A stretch of 43,847 nt of DNA from positions 1 through 43,847 of the IMG/VR virus record IMGVR_UViG_3300015194_000005; one strand, given 5' to 3'. The first letter of the stretch is position 1. Each line of letters starts with the position of its first letter. This DNA comes from a virus. Made by a program: the position numbers and the translations under genes. The notes beneath the pieces were generated by a model that was not told where the DNA came from, searched no databases, and saw nothing but the letters and a program-made list of their open reading frames with translations. This document shows, piece after piece, positions 17,277 to 41,760 of the stretch.

Positions 17277-17318
17277 AGCTATGAGTTGGTTAGAGCAGGA
17301 GCAACCTGCGAAATAAAG

Positions 17319-17471
17319 TTAAGAAAGGAATTTAACACAAGCCTTCATGTCTTCGTTCGCTTTTGTAAGATCCATTATCATCTTGTCGAGAGTTTCGATA
17401 CATTGCTTCGCAGAGAGGTCAGCCATTGTCCTAGCGTTGACATAGTCGATTTCGGCTTGAGTGAGAGTCAT
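17319..17471 (-). CDS. Small helical protein (50 aa)
   Basis: 50 residues, a single amphipathic helical protein (TQAEIDYVNARTMADLSAKQ, then LDKMIMDLTKANEDMKACV) with two Cys. The start follows CCCACTCTAACC. No family recognised. Confidence 0.55.
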   Translation of the reverse strand: MTLTQAEIDYVNARTMADLSAKQCIETLDKMIMDLTKANEDMKACVKFLS

Positions 17472-17473
17472 GG

Positions 17474-17536
17474 TTAGAGTGGGTTAATGATTAGAAACAT
17501 AAGACCTATGCCGATTATTATGTGGAGAGCTTTCAC
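17474..17536 (-). CDS. Possible 20-aa membrane microprotein, GTG start
   Basis: A GTG overlapping the upstream stop as GTGA opens a 20-residue frame that is almost entirely one hydrophobic helix (HIIIGIGLMFLIINPL). It fills the only notable gap in this stretch. Hydrophobic content and coupling support it; its tiny size and rare start argue for caution. Confidence 0.4.
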   Translation of the reverse strand: MKALHIIIGIGLMFLIINPL

Positions 17537-17766
17537 AAAAGGTCTGGGGTAACAGCTTGTAAAGCGTAGGCTTGTTGATCTCGCGACACAGAATCCTCAT
17601 ACGGTGTGTCAAAAATCTCTGGGTAGTTCTCCCTCATAAAACTTTCCACGGGGACTTCTTTTTCTTTTTCCCAATACCCGCAAGTATCACATTCGTATCC
17701 TGATACTTCTCGCAATGTGCGGTAATGGAGAACGTCTGAGCAACTAAGGCAAGGAGGTTTGGACAT
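17533..17766 (-). CDS. Two-CxxC zinc-ribbon protein (77 aa)
   Basis: The ATG at 17766 is chosen because CCTTCCCTCACCCCTCT precedes it; an upstream in-frame ATG at 17856 would add 30 unlikely residues. CLSC at residues 6-9 and CDTC at about 26-29 form a classic zinc ribbon, followed by an acidic tail. Might bind nucleic acid or bridge proteins. Function unknown. Confidence 0.65.
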   Translation of the reverse strand: MSKPPCLSCSDVLHYRTLREVSGYECDTCGYWEKEKEVPVESFMRENYPEIFDTPYEDSVSRDQQAYALQAVTPDLL

Positions 17767-17836
17767 AGAGGGGTGAGGGAAGGAGATGTGCTCAGTATAG
17801 TTCAAGCACGATGAACGCGCAATGCGAAATGTATTG

Positions 17837-18007
17837 TCACGCAGGGCATTTCTCATCCTGGTCTATCATGTACTTCTTAATCTTCCGTTCCACCCAAACA
17901 GAGGTTTTGACCATCTTTGCCCTCAAGGTTCCGTCTTTAGCCCATTGCTGGGCAGTGCGCTTTGGCTGGTTATTCTTCTGAGCCCATTCTTCTAGTGAAA
18001 TTAGCAT
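17837..18007 (-). CDS. Excisionase-like/MerR-type HTH DNA-binding protein (56 aa)
   Basis: ISLEEWAQKNN, PKRTAQQWAKDGTLRAKMV, then SVWVERKIKKYM: the helix-turn-helix plus wing layout of small excisionase/AlpA-like DNA-binding proteins, where the Arg-Thr-xx-xx-Trp helix reads DNA and the wing follows. First gene behind the promoter at 18034-18062 and next to the CGTAC repeat array, so autoregulation of this operon is a reasonable inference. No integrase is present in the window, so a role as transcription factor is more likely than excision. Confidence 0.75.
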   Translation of the reverse strand: MLISLEEWAQKNNQPKRTAQQWAKDGTLRAKMVKTSVWVERKIKKYMIDQDEKCPA

Positions 18008-18033
18008 ATAGTGAGTTAGGGATATGGAAAATC

Positions 18034-18062
18034 ATCATAGCACGCTTAGAGCGCAGATGCAA
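18034..18062 (-). promoter_or_regulatory. Minus-strand promoter of the HTH operon
   Basis: -35-like TTGCAT and -10-like TATGAT (read on the minus strand) with a 17-base spacer, about 27 bases upstream of the HTH gene start. The -35-like box abuts the CGTAC array. The same TTGCAN-17-TATNNT design occurs at 20973-21001 and 25199-25227. Confidence 0.65.
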
Positions 18063-18065
18063 ATA

Positions 18066-18101
18066 CGTACGCCTTCCGTACGGATGCGTACGGATGCGTA
18101 C
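18066..18101. promoter_or_regulatory. Helically phased CGTAC operator array
   Basis: CGTAC begins at 18066, 18077, 18087 and 18097 (spacing 11, 10, 10), the last copies embedded in the direct repeat CGTACGGATG. One-turn spacing places all copies on the same DNA face. Located between the KilA-N gene and the promoter of the HTH operon. Confidence 0.7.
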
Positions 18102-18132
18102 ATACCAAGAGCAGTTTTTATGCTACCCGGCC

Positions 18133-23785: not shown

Positions 23786-24160
23786 ATGCACTTCACTGTT
23801 GAAGGCCAACCACAGGGCAAAGCACGAGCAAGATTTGGGAACGGCCATGCGTACACTCCACAGAAGACAAAAGACTATGAAGAGAGGGTAGGCTGGGCGG
23901 CAAAACAAGTTTGTAGAGGACTCATACAAGGGCCAGTCAGAGTAATCATCGTTGCTTACTTTCAGGTTCCTAAAAAATTCAAGAACAAAACCCCATTTCC
24001 AAAGCCTCTCACAAAACCCGATCTGGATAACATTGCAAAAAGCTGTCTTGATTCTTGTAATGGGATTCTCTGGAAAGATGATGCTCAAGTCGTGAGTCTT
24101 CTTATAACAAAAGAATATTCAGAATTTCCTCGTGTTGAAGTTGATGTTCTAGCTATCTAA
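23786..24160 (+). CDS. RusA-like Holliday junction resolvase
   Basis: 124 residues. The N-terminal strand HFTVEGQPQGKARARF, then the family active-site region KPDLDNIAKSCLDSCNGIL plus WKDDAQV with Asp 79, 81 and 98/99 as the metal-binding acidic triad. RusA enzymes cut branched DNA made in recombination or replication, which must be resolved before packaging. Full-length for the family. Ends in a 12-base convergent overlap with a minus-strand gene. Confidence 0.88.
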   Translation: MHFTVEGQPQGKARARFGNGHAYTPQKTKDYEERVGWAAKQVCRGLIQGPVRVIIVAYFQVPKKFKNKTPFPKPLTKPDLDNIAKSCLDSCNGILWKDDAQVVSLLITKEYSEFPRVEVDVLAI

Positions 24161-24349
24161 CAGACGAAAATACATATGCTTCACCATCACCATTGCATGA
24201 TTCCATGCTTCCTTCCTTGTGTTGAAGTTCCCCGCTCCCATTCCTTCTGTAGACCATCTATATAACCCCGAAGGCCCACGAGTGATCGCTATGGAGAAGC
24301 CTGTAATCTCTTGAGAGGTCACAGAGGAGAATGTTCGATCAGTGAACAC
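24149..24349 (-). CDS. Small hypothetical protein (66 aa), GTG start
   Basis: 66 residues: beta-like ITGFSIAITRGPSGLYRWST and a helical end FNTRKEAWNHAMVMVKHMYF. Protein-like composition with two Trp supports coding. The frame has no early ATG; a GTG at 24349 is used, overlapping an out-of-frame ATG. Isolated on the minus strand, convergent with the rusA-like gene. Confidence 0.5.
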   Translation of the reverse strand: MFTDRTFSSVTSQEITGFSIAITRGPSGLYRWSTEGMGAGNFNTRKEAWNHAMVMVKHMYFRLLDS

Positions 24350-24419
24350 ATAAAGTCAACAAGACTGGTAATGGTAAAGGTAACTATACGTCTCAATGAG
24401 TACTTACCCCCATTTTACT

Positions 24420-24545
24420 ATGGTAGTATTCGAAAAAGACTACGTATTACTAGAGGATCTGGAATTCGATGAAGTGGAAAAAGAAATCATCGAAAAGCTG
24501 AAGGTAGAAGAAGAGCTACTCACTATGAATCATAAGGGCTCCTAA
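24420..24545 (+). CDS. Acidic 41-aa protein
   Basis: 41 residues, strongly acidic helix (YVLLEDLEFDEVEKEII, then KLKVEEELL). The ATG follows TACTTACCCCCATTTTACT, a good start tract. The last 30 bases overlap the end of a convergent minus-strand gene. Small acidic proteins can mimic DNA; that is speculation. Confidence 0.5.
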   Translation: MVVFEKDYVLLEDLEFDEVEKEIIEKLKVEEELLTMNHKGS

Positions 24546-24662
24546 TCTCTTTCGTAATTGCGAGGCATCTTCTGAAATTGTGTCTTCTTCAAGACTTTCT
24601 TCTATTGCTACTATTTCTAGAGGAGTAATGGTGAACTCTTTTTCTGGGTGAGAATTATCCAT
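24516..24662 (-). CDS. Acidic 48-aa protein on minus strand
   Basis: 48 residues: PEKEFTITPLEIVAIEESLE, an acidic Ser/Asp section and a basic end. Composition resembles that of the convergent acidic 41-aa protein. Upstream on the minus strand is ATACTTGAGTC, also found just after the -10-like box at 20973, hinting at a related promoter. Unknown function. Confidence 0.48.
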   Translation of the reverse strand: MDNSHPEKEFTITPLEIVAIEESLEEDTISEDASQLRKRLGALMIHSE

Positions 24663-24792
24663 AGATCTAAGATACTCCATCAATAGTTAGACTCAAGTAT
24701 TTTGCACCATTAGGCAACTCAATCACCAGAGGGATACTTCTTTATGAATGCCTCAACGCCTTCTTCATCTAAGACTCTTCCCATCTTTGCCT

Positions 24793-24960
24793 ATGTACGC
24801 CTTCAACGGAACCCTTTGGGTTCCGACAGCCGAACAGGATCTTATAATCACGGATACCAGTGCGTTACAAAGACTAGGCTTTGTACCGATGACCATTAAC
24901 CTAGATGAGCACATTCTTCCTCAGCTCAATAAAAAAGAGGAGGGGCGCGTGAACGCCTAA
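24793..24960 (+). CDS. Small hypothetical protein (55 aa)
   Basis: 55 residues from the ATG at 24793, which follows CTTCCCATCTTTGCCT; an upstream in-frame ATG at 24748 is less likely. Sequence starts with an aromatic beta strand (MYAFNGTLWVPTAEQDLI) and ends in a charged helix. Last gene before the structured gap at 24961-25342. Confidence 0.55.
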   Translation: MYAFNGTLWVPTAEQDLIITDTSALQRLGFVPMTINLDEHILPQLNKKEEGRVNA

Positions 24961-24969
24961 CTCCTCGTA

Positions 24970-25170
24970 GATGTACAAAGTTTCCGGATGAACCAGAGGC
25001 TACCGGAGCTTTGTGCTGCATAAGCAGCTTTTGATCCTCGAAAACAAAGAACAAAAGCTATTCATGTAGACACACCATCGCCGAAGACTTGAAGGAGCTG
25101 GAGTGCTCAGTGACCCACCCTTTACCTAGGCAAGGTGGGATACTTAGAACTCCAAAGAGCTACTTCATTG
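24970..25170 (+). ncRNA. Candidate structured noncoding RNA
   Basis: A 382-bp gene-free gap (24961-25342) opens with dense paired segments: ACAAAG-TTTCCGG (24975-24987) with CCGGAGCTTTGT (25003-25014); hairpin GCTGC-ATAA-GCAGC (25015-25028); AGCTTTTG (25026-25033) with CAAAAGCT (25052-25059); and a nested long arm TGAAGGAGCT (25090-25099) with AGCTACTTCA (25158-25167), GGAGT (25100) with ACTCC (25149), CCCACC (25114) with GGTGGG (25134). The second and third stems share AGC, so they may be alternative states. No frame of note lies here. Strand is assumed from the flanking genes. Does not match a class I recognise. Confidence 0.55.
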
Positions 25171-25185
25171 TATCACATCTTCTCT

Positions 25186-25320
25186 GGATACGGGTAACTT
25201 GCATTGATAAAAATCAGAGAGTATTATTTTCTCGTGCGTAAACAGGAACTCTTATCGGCCTTTCCGTGCAGACGTGTATACAAAAGGTTTACGCACAGTT
25301 TACCGTATCCACGTTTGCAC
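25186..25320. repeat. Nested inverted repeats around the replication promoter and leader
   Basis: Outer arms GGATACGG (25186-25193) and CCGTATCC (25303-25310). Inner perfect 10-bp arms GTGCGTAAAC (25234-25243) and GTTTACGCAC (25287-25296). A third imperfect pair, GTGCAGACGT (25266-25275) and ACGTTTGCAC (25311-25320), interleaves. In RNA the inner pair would form a leader hairpin starting at the predicted transcript start; in DNA they could be operator or origin sites. Confidence 0.65.
25199..25227 (+). promoter_or_regulatory. Promoter of the replication operon
   Basis: TTGCAT, 17-base spacer, TATTAT. Predicted start near 25234, giving a leader of about 110 bases before the ATG at 25343. Same TTGCAN-17 design as the minus-strand promoters at 18034-18062 and 20973-21001. 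Confidence 0.65.
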
Positions 25321-25342
25321 AGAGGGGCTTCCCTTTTTTTCT

Positions 25343-26137
25343 ATGGCAAATAACTGGTTCCCTCATGATTCTTCCGCGTCTACAGATCAAAAAATTCTCC
25401 TTCTGCGGTCTGAATTTGGGAATGTAGGTTATGCTTGGTATTTTATGATTTTAGAATGGCTCTGGCAAACTGCTGATGGGAAATCGCCCTACAACATTGA
25501 CTCAATTTCCTTCTTTTTACATGAAGATCGAACGATCATCGAACGATACATCCAACGATGTATTGATCTAGAGTTATTCATTAGAGAGAAAAATGAGTTC
25601 TATTCCTTCCGATTGACTCAAGAGAAAGACTTTTGGTTAGAGAAATCTAAGAATGGGAAGAGGGCTGTTGCTATTCGTGAAGCCAAAAAGAAGAAGATTG
25701 ACGAGAACAAAGAAAAGAATACTAGTATCGAACGATCATCGGATGATATATCGAATGATCATCCCGTACCAACCAACCGTACCAACCAACCAACCGTACC
25801 AACATCTATGTCCGATAAATCGGACGCGAAAATACAAGTGATGAATGAACTTGAGATTTTCTCACGCTGGCTTTCTGGTGCTGGTATCTTCTCTGACAGA
25901 AAAACGATTACGGAGAAGGCTAAAAAGAAGTGGAATGCTCGCCGTTCTAAATACAGTCCCGCGGAAATTACAAACGCTTTTAGCAACCTTGTCAACGAGC
26001 CTGACAGATGGAAATTGAACAACAACGGCCATCGTCCGATTTCGTGGTGGCTTGATTCTGATGATCGACTGGAAGAAATGAAGAACTGTCATTTGAAACG
26101 TTCCGCAAACCAAAAGCCTTTATATATTATTCCCTAA
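25343..26137 (+). CDS. Replication initiator-like protein (DUF4373/Lin1244-type N-terminus)
   Basis: 264 residues from the ATG at 25343 (tract CCCTTTTTTTCT). The first 80 residues read NNWFPHDSSASTDQKILLLR, GNVGYAWYFMILEWLW and a basic HTH-like end, matching the Lin1244/DUF4373 domain found in phage and plasmid replication proteins. A Lys-rich and then Pro/Thr/Asn-rich linker (residues about 110-155) is followed by a C-terminal helical domain ending in RPISWWLDSDDR, a DnaD-like trait. Likely loads the host replisome. Direct repeats inside the gene form an origin candidate. Confidence 0.75.
   Translation: MANNWFPHDSSASTDQKILLLRSEFGNVGYAWYFMILEWLWQTADGKSPYNIDSISFFLHEDRTIIERYIQRCIDLELFIREKNEFYSFRLTQEKDFWLEKSKNGKRAVAIREAKKKKIDENKEKNTSIERSSDDISNDHPVPTNRTNQPTVPTSMSDKSDAKIQVMNELEIFSRWLSGAGIFSDRKTITEKAKKKWNARRSKYSPAEITNAFSNLVNEPDRWKLNNNGHRPISWWLDSDDRLEEMKNCHLKRSANQKPLYIIP
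25527..25799. repeat. Iteron-like repeats inside the initiator gene (origin candidate)
   Basis: ATCGAACGATCATCG occurs exactly at 25527-25541 and 25727-25741, and ATCGAATGATCATCC at 25750-25764; a partial copy (ATCGAACGAT) begins at 25538. The two exact copies are 200 bp apart and in different reading frames, so the match is not due to protein sequence. Next comes a run of CCGTACCAA units with CGTAC at 25765, 25778 and 25795. The layout resembles lambdoid origins placed inside the initiator gene. Confidence 0.65.
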
Positions 26138-27223: not shown

Positions 27224-27559
27224 ATGTGTTTGATGAGAAACACGTCCAGTACTGTATCACAGGCAAACCCTTCAATCATAGTTAAACCAGTTGGGCTACA
27301 ATCTTCTGAGCTTATTCGCATTGAATGCAAGTGCGGTGAGCAAATGAAGATCGACACTACTTCTCAGTGGGAAGTAGAAATGATCGGACAATGGAAGTTC
27401 ACTCACCACTGCGGATGGACCGTAACAGTTCCGAATGATGAGCTGATCCAGGACATTAAGGACCATCCAGAATGGGCGAAGCCAGAACCTTCCCTCATTA
27501 AAGGCTCTGCAAATAACTCACCAAATTTAACGGAATGGAAGGATGCCCCTCTCTCCTAA
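27224..27559 (+). CDS. Zinc-ribbon-like protein (111 aa)
   Basis: 111 residues. Core IECKCGEQMKID and FTHHCGWTVTVPN form a beta ribbon with a CxC and an HHC ligand set. The C-terminal third is Pro/Asn-rich. Start at 27224 or three codons later at 27233; neither has a clear tract. Function unknown. Confidence 0.55.
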   Translation: MCLMRNTSSTVSQANPSIIVKPVGLQSSELIRIECKCGEQMKIDTTSQWEVEMIGQWKFTHHCGWTVTVPNDELIQDIKDHPEWAKPEPSLIKGSANNSPNLTEWKDAPLS

Positions 27560-27572
27560 CCCCTAAGACCCT

Positions 27573-27752
27573 ATGGAACCCAACGAAGAACTCCCAACAG
27601 AAGAAACGTACGACAAAGTCCTTGGCCGTCTTCTCTTAGAATCTGCAAAAGACCAGCTAAAATGGATCAAGAGTGGCATCGTAGGAATCTCAGTATTCTT
27701 CATCTGCCTTGGAGCGCTTGGTGTAATCGCTTTAGCTCGAACTATTTTTTGA
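27573..27752 (+). CDS. Single-pass membrane protein (59 aa)
   Basis: 59 residues: acidic N-terminal tail (EPNEELPTEETYDKV), amphipathic helix, then a transmembrane helix (GIVGISVFFICLGALGVIAL). Start tract CCCTCTCTCCTAACCCC. Could be a membrane anchor for an infection complex; no family recognised. Confidence 0.58.
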   Translation: MEPNEELPTEETYDKVLGRLLLESAKDQLKWIKSGIVGISVFFICLGALGVIALARTIF

Positions 27753-35275: not shown

Positions 35276-35346
35276 GAACTAAGCACGGTGGCTGAGTTCT
35301 GGGGGCTTCCACACTCCTGTCCTCAGAACCTAGCCACTTGCTAGTT
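35276..35346 (+). terminator. Long imperfect hairpin before the scaffold gene
   Basis: GTGGCT (35288-35293) and GTTCTG (35296-35301) pair with CAGAAC (35324-35329) and AGCCAC (35332-35337) with one internal mismatch step. The base may extend through AACTA with TAGTT, and GTTTTTCCC follows. Acts as a terminator or processing site between portal and capsid genes. The same 174-bp gap also has CTAGCAC / GTGCTAG arms at 35196-35240. Confidence 0.5.
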
Positions 35347-38490: not shown

Positions 38491-38813
38491 TCTCCTCACG
38501 AACACTCTGGGCACCTACCGTTGGATCAACAGTCCTCCTTGCTGGTAAAGGAGTGACGAGACTTTGTGATCTTGAAGTACAAAACGGCACTGCCGCCATC
38601 CTCTACGTTCAGTTATTCAATGCAGCTTCTGCAAGCGATGTGACGATAGGGACTACGGCACCTGACAAGGTTATTAAAGTAGAAGCCAGCGTTGCTGTGC
38701 ATAGAAGTTTCCCTAACCCACCAGACTTCCCGCTTGGGCTTTGCTACGCGTCGACAACGACAGCCACGGGCTCTAGCACTGCTGCATGTTCGATTAATTT
38801 TGATCTAGCGTAA
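38487..38813 (+). CDS. Small head-tail protein (108 aa)
   Basis: 108 residues, beta-rich with hydrophobic strands (VGSTVLLAGKGVTRLCDLEV, AAILYVQLFNAASASDV). Resembles small virion surface or joining proteins. Start tract ATTTCCTCACCCGCCTC. Not a recognised family. Confidence 0.6.
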   Translation: MISSRTLWAPTVGSTVLLAGKGVTRLCDLEVQNGTAAILYVQLFNAASASDVTIGTTAPDKVIKVEASVAVHRSFPNPPDFPLGLCYASTTTATGSSTAACSINFDLA

Positions 38814-38827
38814 TCCCCCTTCTGAAG

Positions 38828-39703
38828 ATGGCCAATCCCTTAGTCAGTGAAATCATCACACGTGCTCGGGGACTAATCCGAGCAGAACAGGGTAGTGATG
38901 TCCCTGCTGTTTCAGATGATTTTATGATCTCTGCCATCTCTGATGCAGACAAAGAACTTTTGAGAGCTTTTCGAGGAGGTGGAGGGAATACTCCCTCTTC
39001 TATAGCCAGAGAGACGGGATTTAATCTTGCCTCAGAGACTGCTATCAATGACGTTAATGGTGTAACAACAGCAAGCACCTCGATCACTGTAGATTCTACG
39101 ACTGGGTATGATTCTGCTGGAGCTGCGATGTTTTGGGATAAGGAAATGTTTGACATCTTCTACTACACAGGAATCACGGCTACGACGTTCACGGGTGTCA
39201 CAGGGATTCAGTTTTCTCACACCGATAATACTGCCATTCAACCACTGCAAGCTCTCCCAGCCAACTTCAAGAACTTTCGGCACACTGAACAGTATGGAGA
39301 TGGCGTGAGTTTGAACGGTTTCCCTCTAACTTATATGGAAGGGCCACCCCTTCAAGGGAAATTCTCTATGGTGAATGATGGAACGACCACTTACTTGTGG
39401 TTATTCCGTGGTTCTACAGGCACCGCAGGAGTCTACTACGACAAATCAGGCTCAAGCATCACGACGACAGGGGACAGCGTCTCATTTTATGATGATTCTC
39501 TCTATTTCTACGTCTGGAGGTGTATCGAAATGTGTCTATTTGGCAGAGGAGAATACCAAACGATCCAAATAGCCAAGCAGAAGGGTGATTATGTCAAATT
39601 AGACGTCCTCAAGGATAGAAATAACGGCAGGAGAGTACGAGTCCGACAATTCCAGCCTGTTGGTTCTAATTACCGTCTGGCTTTACGTGAAAACGCTTTA
39701 TGA
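38828..39703 (+). CDS. Head-tail adaptor-like protein
   Basis: 291 residues. The N-terminus VSEIITRARGLIRAEQGSDV then SDDFMISAISDADKELLRAF is the helical start seen in podovirus tail-tube adaptors (gp11/TTPA-like) and other head-tail connectors. A beta domain follows, ending in a basic strand (RNNGRRVRVRQFQPVGSNYR). Located between small head genes and a likely nozzle protein. Start tract AATCCCCCTTCTG. Assigned by architecture and order. Confidence 0.62.
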   Translation: MANPLVSEIITRARGLIRAEQGSDVPAVSDDFMISAISDADKELLRAFRGGGGNTPSSIARETGFNLASETAINDVNGVTTASTSITVDSTTGYDSAGAAMFWDKEMFDIFYYTGITATTFTGVTGIQFSHTDNTAIQPLQALPANFKNFRHTEQYGDGVSLNGFPLTYMEGPPLQGKFSMVNDGTTTYLWLFRGSTGTAGVYYDKSGSSITTTGDSVSFYDDSLYFYVWRCIEMCLFGRGEYQTIQIAKQKGDYVKLDVLKDRNNGRRVRVRQFQPVGSNYRLALRENAL

Positions 39704-41760
39704 GTGAAATTACTATCCCCTACGTCAGCTTGCGCCGTCCTTGGACTGGTTTCAAATCATACTTTAGTGATCCAGCCAATGCAGGGTACAACAACCTCTC
39801 TTCCCCTTCTCAGAACTGTCTCATCACAGAGTCAGGAAGTGTGGAAAGCAGGAAAGGATACATGGCTGAGTTCTCTATTGGTGTAAATGGAAGTCCTGCT
39901 ACAGCTTTTTACCTTTCAACCTATGAAGTCGCTTTCTTTGCTCTCGGAACAAAACTCTATTATCGAGACTTTACAACGGCAGCGACCTACGACACGGGGA
40001 TCACTCTCACGACTGGGACGACGACGAGATTCGCTGAATATAATGGAGATATTTATTGTACTAATACGACTGACGGACCTCGACGAATTGTCTGTATGAG
40101 ACTCAATGGAAACGTCGCAGCTGGGGATACCTCTATCACGGTAGACGCAGACGGACTTTCACGCTTGCAGGTCTTTAGTGTTACGTCTGGGAATCTGATC
40201 ATTAACGGTACAGCTGAAGCCTTCACAAACCCTATTGTTCCTTACGGTTCTATTAATGGTGCAGTGACTGATGGAGGATTGATTAAAATAACTTCTACTG
40301 CGAATCATAACCTCCTCACAGGGGACTCTATTACGATCACAGGAGTTACAGGCACAACTGAGGCAAACGGAACGTGGACGGTGACGAAGATCGATGCTAC
40401 CCATTTCGATCTACAGACTTCCGTCTTCACGAATGCGTATGTCTCTGGTGGAGCATTTACATGGGATTATTCAGGTGGATCAGGTGGAAAGGTTCATCTC
40501 ACGACCACGGCAAGTCAGGCGTATACAGATAACACGTTCGCTCTTGTCGTTCAGAATATCTCTTCTGTTGTTGGGATTGAAAAGCCAAGTAAGATTGAGT
40601 TTTGGAAGTCTCGCCTTCATTTGATGGGATTCCCTTCGACAAAAAATGTTGATCAGCCTAATAACTCCGTTATTGCTGGTCAATTCATCGACGGTCAAGC
40701 GAACGAAATACAAAACATTATTGATTTTACCTATGGAACTGGTGGAGCGACGAAAATAACAGTCGGTTCTGGAGGTAAACTCACGAATATCTTAGGTGTA
40801 AAGGACTTCCTGTACTTCTTCCTTGAGAACAAAACTTATGCAGCAAACTCTGCGGATGTTGTAAAATCAGGTTCTGGGATAGGGAATACCGTCCCCGAGA
40901 TTAAAGACGAGCTACACGGGTGTCTCAACGAAGACTGCGCAACGATTATGGGTGAGAGCGGACTTCTCTACGCCACAAGTGACAAACGCATCATGATGAT
41001 CTCGACTGCTACCGACACGGGAGCTGCTGTAAGTGCCCCACAAGAAGACTTTGACGTTCCTATTAGGGGACATCTTGTAAATATGGACAACGATCAAACT
41101 GGAGCTCTTGTGTACCACTATAGAGGTGGACGGCAGACGATCTGCCAGTTAAAAGTTAGTGGTCAGTGGTATTGGTTCATCTATGACCATAACATCGTCA
41201 TTAACCTCGGCCAGACGACGCAGAATGGAGCATGGCAGCCTCCTCAGTCTATTTCTCCTGTCACTGCCTTCATGGAAAGGAATGGAGTCCTTTATGGAAC
41301 CGACTCATCAACAGATACGGTCTACAGTTACTTCACAACCTTCACGGATAACTTGAACCCTATTCAAGTGGTTGTTGCTACGGGAGAATTTAACGTAGGA
41401 AGTGCGATGATGAAGACTGCCATGATGCAGGGAACGATCAACCAACCTTCGCAGATTAACATGAACTGTTATGTGGTAAACGAAACACTCGGAAGGCGTA
41501 CTGGTTCAGCAAAGATCGTCAATGGGTCGGACTACAACTACAGTGATGACCAGTCTGTCGGTGCAGTCCCTGTAGGGAGTGGAGGCATAGGGCAGTCAAC
41601 GCCTATCGCAAAGTGGAAGAGGGAGTTTGGTGTCTATCCTTCCGAGGCGAACCGCGTTCAACTTATTGCAACAAACTTCCAAGATGGTGGTTACTTTAGT
41701 GTTTCCTATTACTCCCTTGTTGGAGATTCTTATCCTGGCACATTTAAGCCTCAGCTCTAA
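39700..41760 (+). CDS. Tail nozzle/stabilisation-like protein with FCCH-type insert
   Basis: 686 residues. The start reads YVSLRRPWTGFKSYFSDP, NNLSSPSQNCLITESGSVES and RKGYM, the usual opening of podovirus nozzle (TTPB-like) or stabilisation proteins. A small beta insert near residues 185-250 (SANHNLLTGDSITITGVTG, TTEANGTWTVTKID) matches the repeating Ig/FCCH-like module common in phage. Beta-propeller-like region follows (GVLYGTDSSTDTVYSY). Overlaps the adaptor by four bases. Likely forms the tail tube end. Confidence 0.7.
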   Translation: MSEITIPYVSLRRPWTGFKSYFSDPANAGYNNLSSPSQNCLITESGSVESRKGYMAEFSIGVNGSPATAFYLSTYEVAFFALGTKLYYRDFTTAATYDTGITLTTGTTTRFAEYNGDIYCTNTTDGPRRIVCMRLNGNVAAGDTSITVDADGLSRLQVFSVTSGNLIINGTAEAFTNPIVPYGSINGAVTDGGLIKITSTANHNLLTGDSITITGVTGTTEANGTWTVTKIDATHFDLQTSVFTNAYVSGGAFTWDYSGGSGGKVHLTTTASQAYTDNTFALVVQNISSVVGIEKPSKIEFWKSRLHLMGFPSTKNVDQPNNSVIAGQFIDGQANEIQNIIDFTYGTGGATKITVGSGGKLTNILGVKDFLYFFLENKTYAANSADVVKSGSGIGNTVPEIKDELHGCLNEDCATIMGESGLLYATSDKRIMMISTATDTGAAVSAPQEDFDVPIRGHLVNMDNDQTGALVYHYRGGRQTICQLKVSGQWYWFIYDHNIVINLGQTTQNGAWQPPQSISPVTAFMERNGVLYGTDSSTDTVYSYFTTFTDNLNPIQVVVATGEFNVGSAMMKTAMMQGTINQPSQINMNCYVVNETLGRRTGSAKIVNGSDYNYSDDQSVGAVPVGSGGIGQSTPIAKWKREFGVYPSEANRVQLIATNFQDGGYFSVSYYSLVGDSYPGTFKPQL

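Follow-up and report, generated by a model that had tools for sequence, protein, structure and literature searches.

In the virus record IMGVR_UViG_3300015194_000005 of IMG/VR, a 43.8-kb phage contig of 43,847 bases with phage genes that is referred to at its full length as the window, a strongly folded stretch lies ahead of the replication gene, and we read it, with a probability of about one half, as encoding on its minus strand a discrete RNA that is not translated. The strand and the limits of the putative RNA are taken from the promoter-like and terminator-like signals that flank the fold, and its transcription and regulatory role are putative. Transcription would begin at an extended -10 promoter, with its start near 25160, head away from the replication operon, pass through three hairpins (H1 to H3) and end near 24931, where a strong intrinsic terminator overlaps the last part of a small gene that faces it. 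The fold itself is real, the reading as an RNA gene is plausible, and the function is putative. Few noncoding RNAs have been annotated in uncultivated phages; if the region that controls replication held an entire RNA gene, from promoter through folded body to terminator, it would be a concrete candidate for the RNA-based control of phage replication. The features on which this reading is built are compiled in Table 1.

Table 1. Features of the gap and its surroundings, and positions of the hairpin ahead of the capsid scaffold gene in the window and in related phages.
Feature	Position	Strand	Remarks
Proposed noncoding RNA gene, ~230 nt	24931..25160	-	Fold z -5.8 for 24926-25168; ends set by the promoter-like and terminator-like signals; transcription predicted
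Extended -10 element TGATACAAT	25167..25175	-	Sole TGNTAYAAT in the window
Hairpin H1	25090..25167	-	-33.8 kcal/mol alone
Hairpin H2, with the arms that have AGC in common	25008..25076	-	-27.2 kcal/mol alone
Hairpin H3, with competing pairings	24975..25013	-	-13.0 kcal/mol alone
Intrinsic terminator, H4 and T tract (GAGGAG...CTCCTC TTTTTT)	24930..24966	-	-17.5 kcal/mol
Operator-like half site GGATACGGGTAACT, covering the place of a -35 for the RNA promoter	25186..25199	+	Putative function
Possible replication-operon promoter TTGCAT-17-TATTAT	25198..25226	+	Read from the sequence; weak -35
Small convergent ORF, 3' end overlapping the terminator	24793..24960	+	Codon score +0.09 per codon, coding-like
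Replication gene with Lin1244_N domain	25343..26137	+	Pfam PF14297, E 2.7e-8
Scaffold hairpin, window	35288..35338	+	
Scaffold hairpin, L004	8855..8919		
Scaffold hairpin, L005	4721..4784		
Scaffold hairpin, L006	7602..7664		
Scaffold hairpin, L019	12720..12786		
Scaffold hairpin, L021	12589..12650		
Scaffold hairpin, L007 (MW202647.1)	27585..27519	-	

Stability and architecture of the fold

The stretch lies in a gap of 382 bp (24961-25342), between the end of the convergent ORF and the start of the replication gene, as a preliminary description of this DNA had stated. The same description presented positions 24961-25190 as a highly structured noncoding region and a possible new RNA, a view that is supported by the fold statistics, by negative Rfam, tRNA and tmRNA searches, and by promoter-like and terminator-like signals that stand in order on one strand. 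It had also named a folding energy no better than that of shuffled controls as grounds for refutation; compared with dinucleotide shuffles (n=200), the interval folds at -70.8 kcal/mol on the plus strand (z -3.4) and at -84.1 kcal/mol on the minus strand (z -4.6), and on neither strand did any of the 200 shuffles reach the native value. When the minus strand is extended to the terminator (24926-25168), the energy is -91.8 kcal/mol and the z-score -5.8, again with 0/200 shuffles as good. The fold of the described interval is thus upheld and its left edge is not: the strongest candidate RNA, on the minus strand, runs about 30 nt past it. Among 1,746 segments of 200 nt taken from the two strands across the entire window, with G+C and skew corrected for, minus-strand positions 24976-25175 come first in stability for their base composition, at -4.6 sd, and the next unrelated region follows at -3.7 sd.

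Taken by themselves, these energies distinguish neither RNA from DNA nor the minus strand from the plus strand. Attempts to choose the strand from energies or G-U pairs were abandoned: either strand has 9 G-U pairs, and the difference between the strands is unremarkable. As single-stranded DNA the two strands also fold well, with z-scores of -4.7 and -5.0, which would suit a DNA element whose hairpins serve as an origin of replication or a site of recombination. Its position next to the replication gene and the inverted repeats that follow at 25185-25311 point the same way; however, the promoter-like and terminator-like signals frame the stretch on one strand, the G+C skew does not turn at the site, and repeat families of the origin type are absent from the arms, and we consider a DNA element unlikely.

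The complementary arms that had been described are real, and they are predicted to form four nested minus-strand hairpins, H1 to H4, of which the last, without its T tract, occupies 24966-24937; a C-rich unpaired linker separates H1 from H2. The proposal that two stems sharing AGC exclude each other, as in a switch, did not hold. The alternative GCUGC/GCAGC pairing has a probability of 0.007-0.016 (at most 0.02) compared with 0.98 for the main H2 helix, and H2 prevails in every transcript prefix long enough to contain it. We therefore rejected the AGC switch on the pairing probabilities, in which no balanced pair of stems is found.

Signals at the edges of the stretch and the neighboring genes

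On the minus strand, the arms are bordered 5' by the extended -10 element and 3' by the terminator. TGNTAYAAT, a pattern picked after the site had been seen, occurs once in the window, where 2.7 occurrences are expected by chance, and no match to a -35 element was found for this promoter. From the usual -10 spacing, the transcript is predicted to start near 25160. Such a start would leave the lowest helix of H1 (25167-25163/25094-25090) outside the RNA, which is a weak point of the reading as an RNA gene. The operator-like half site has an inverted partner at 25297-25311. At the other edge, H4 is followed by TTTTTTA, and this terminator, which overlaps the ORF ending at 24960, ranks among the three strongest of the window; in shuffled genomes, terminators of -15 or lower occur roughly once in every three genomes.

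Coding potential was scored with a codon model for which the genes of this phage served as the training set; the model is weak for ORFs this short. No coding signal was found across the structured stretch, where ORFs score from -0.11 to -0.19 per codon. The convergent ORF, which has no Pfam match, scores similarly to other small genes in this phage, and on this codon score we regard it as a probable gene. Since it is coding-like, the layout would be that of a stand-alone gene between two plus-strand genes.

Two kinds of leader were considered as alternatives. The stretch could be the 5' leader, of the attenuator or riboswitch type, of a minus-strand gene at 24914-24765 behind the terminator. 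It resembles such leaders in its intrinsic terminator, in the hairpins that typically precede one, and in a possible ribosome site (GAGGAAG) with an ATG 17 nt past the terminator. It differs from them in that the ORF behind lacks a coding signal, no anti-terminator pairing competes with the terminator, and no riboswitch model of Rfam matches. With a score of -0.12 per codon for this ORF and of +0.09 for the plus-strand ORF that overlaps it, a stand-alone RNA gene fits better, and the minus-strand leader seems improbable to us. We find it very improbable that the stretch is part of a plus-strand leader of the replication operon, transcribed from a promoter further upstream: the plus strand folds well (z -3.4) and is the strand of the replication gene, but a simple scan of 24000-25200 detects no upstream promoter-like site on it, and the promoter of the operon, as far as it can be recognized, appears to sit downstream of the structure.

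Relatives, known systems and the possible role of the RNA

The earlier statement that the stretch matches no tRNA, tmRNA or riboswitch remains valid. The Rfam scan suggested in the preliminary description (Rfam 15, gathering cut-offs) gave 0 matches in the whole window, and at E-values up to 10 only chance-level matches appear between 24600 and 25400; ARAGORN predicts 0 tRNA or tmRNA genes in the window. No homolog of the RNA was found in IMG/VR through the TerL, capsid, portal and replication proteins, in GTDB genomes through the portal protein, or in phages and plasmids by DNA searches, including blastn against phage records. Exact loop patterns retrieved only chance matches from IMG/VR and GTDB, and a single-sequence covariance model run over all fetched loci recovered only the window itself. 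The portal, capsid and TerL proteins lead to a group of related phages (L004/L016/L022, L005, L006, L019/L020, L021 and GenBank entry MW202647.1, which is L007). Among these relatives, a clearly related replication gene is present only in L019, with 37-38% protein identity, and the gap upstream of that gene contains no such RNA.

The lack of homologs in the searched collections and the absence from L019, which has the same replication gene, are what would be expected if the structure had arisen by chance or had decayed without function, for example as the relic of an insertion. Yet no other place in the window folds as stably for its base composition, and the start and stop signals that frame it are rare there; we regard such an origin as rather unlikely.

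If the RNA exists, its most likely nature is that of an orphan phage intergenic sRNA, of a known kind and with a putative function. The closest comparison is the OOP RNA of phage lambda, which is transcribed leftward from pO, ends at a terminator and overlaps the 3' end of cII by 52 bases (PMC5869508; reviewed in PMC12197685). As with OOP, transcription of the RNA proposed here would start at a predicted promoter next to the replication genes and lead away from them, and its intrinsic terminator reaches into the 3' end of the convergent ORF, by about 30 bases compared with the 52 in lambda. Unlike OOP, it would be about 230 nt long with three extra hairpins, and the likeness is one of anatomy, not of sequence: blastn against phage records gave no match that would indicate homology to OOP, and the convergent ORF has no Pfam match that would mark it as a cII. 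By this analogy, the most likely role of the RNA would be to regulate the early/replication region: a divergent transcript, itself controlled from the promoter region that it shares with the replication gene, it might act as an antisense where the convergent gene ends, by way of the unpaired C-rich linker, or both, and the hairpins would serve stability or protein binding. Given that the RNA exists, we consider a role of this kind possible but somewhat doubtful. In the pairing model, the C-rich run could bind ribosome sites; the predicted pairing to translation starts is unspecific, and the replication gene comes fifth among the pairings listed.

GOLLD and ROOL (PMC12286853) are likewise phage-encoded and elaborately folded noncoding RNAs, as is predicted here. 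They measure from about 660 to more than 800 nt, are represented by Rfam models and are often found close to tRNA islands; in contrast to them, the present stretch matches no Rfam model and there is no tRNA in the window.

A larger folded region is found in MW202647.1, where about 950 nt (38769-39735) are highly structured (z -4.3) and apparently noncoding. It has no Rfam family match beyond chance level, and the record annotates tiny hypothetical ORFs in it. This stretch starts at TGTTATAAT, one of two extended -10 sites in that genome, a coincidence that we count in favor of the reading of the gap as an RNA gene. Window positions 17280-18132, upstream of the relative of an MW202647.1 operon gene, are unstructured (z -0.9). 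It is quite unlikely, in our estimation, that the RNA is the first of a new class of structured phage RNAs, divergently placed beside an early operon and started from a rare extended -10, with the stretch of MW202647.1 as its large counterpart in the same group.

Other structured elements in the phage group

Six phages share a conserved hairpin ahead of the gene for the capsid scaffold; both sides are changed in 7/16 of its pairs, and the covariation score is 0.52, compared with 0.22 in shuffles. The model built from these six finds it in a seventh, MW202647.1, at the same place (E 3.3e-7); Rfam gives no match to it. As this hairpin covaries in seven relatives, structured RNA seems to have more than a single place of use in this little-studied group of phages, and the evidence for selection is stronger here than for the RNA at 24931-25160. 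A separate pair count, made on alignment A7, was discarded, one row of A7 being an antisense copy of another. Because the AGCC/CTAGC of its 3' arm can pair alternatively with a downstream GGCTA/GCTAG repeat, the scaffold hairpin may be a real switch-like leader.

The leader of the replication gene (window 25233-25340, plus strand) contains two mutually exclusive helices and a T-rich end. The first to form is 25234-25243/25287-25296; a longer helix (25256-25275/25309-25328) then takes its place and extends over the likely ribosome site AGAGGGG as well as a small terminator-like hairpin. A similar leader hairpin is seen at the same place in L019 (4535-4450, minus strand).

Two further elements resemble known RNA families. 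In L025, positions 17953-18068 of the minus strand score 31.9 bits with the Rfam tRNA model (cut-off 29) and have a long insert in the region of the anticodon arm; ARAGORN makes no call there, and the element is possibly an intron-containing or unusual tRNA. In L007, positions 45725-45761 of the plus strand match the abiF RNA (RF03085), barely over the gathering score. In the window, short tandem repeats of the CGTACGGATG type are located at 18063-18103, between a small minus-strand ORF (17837-18007) and a KilA-N gene, and are possible operators or iterons.
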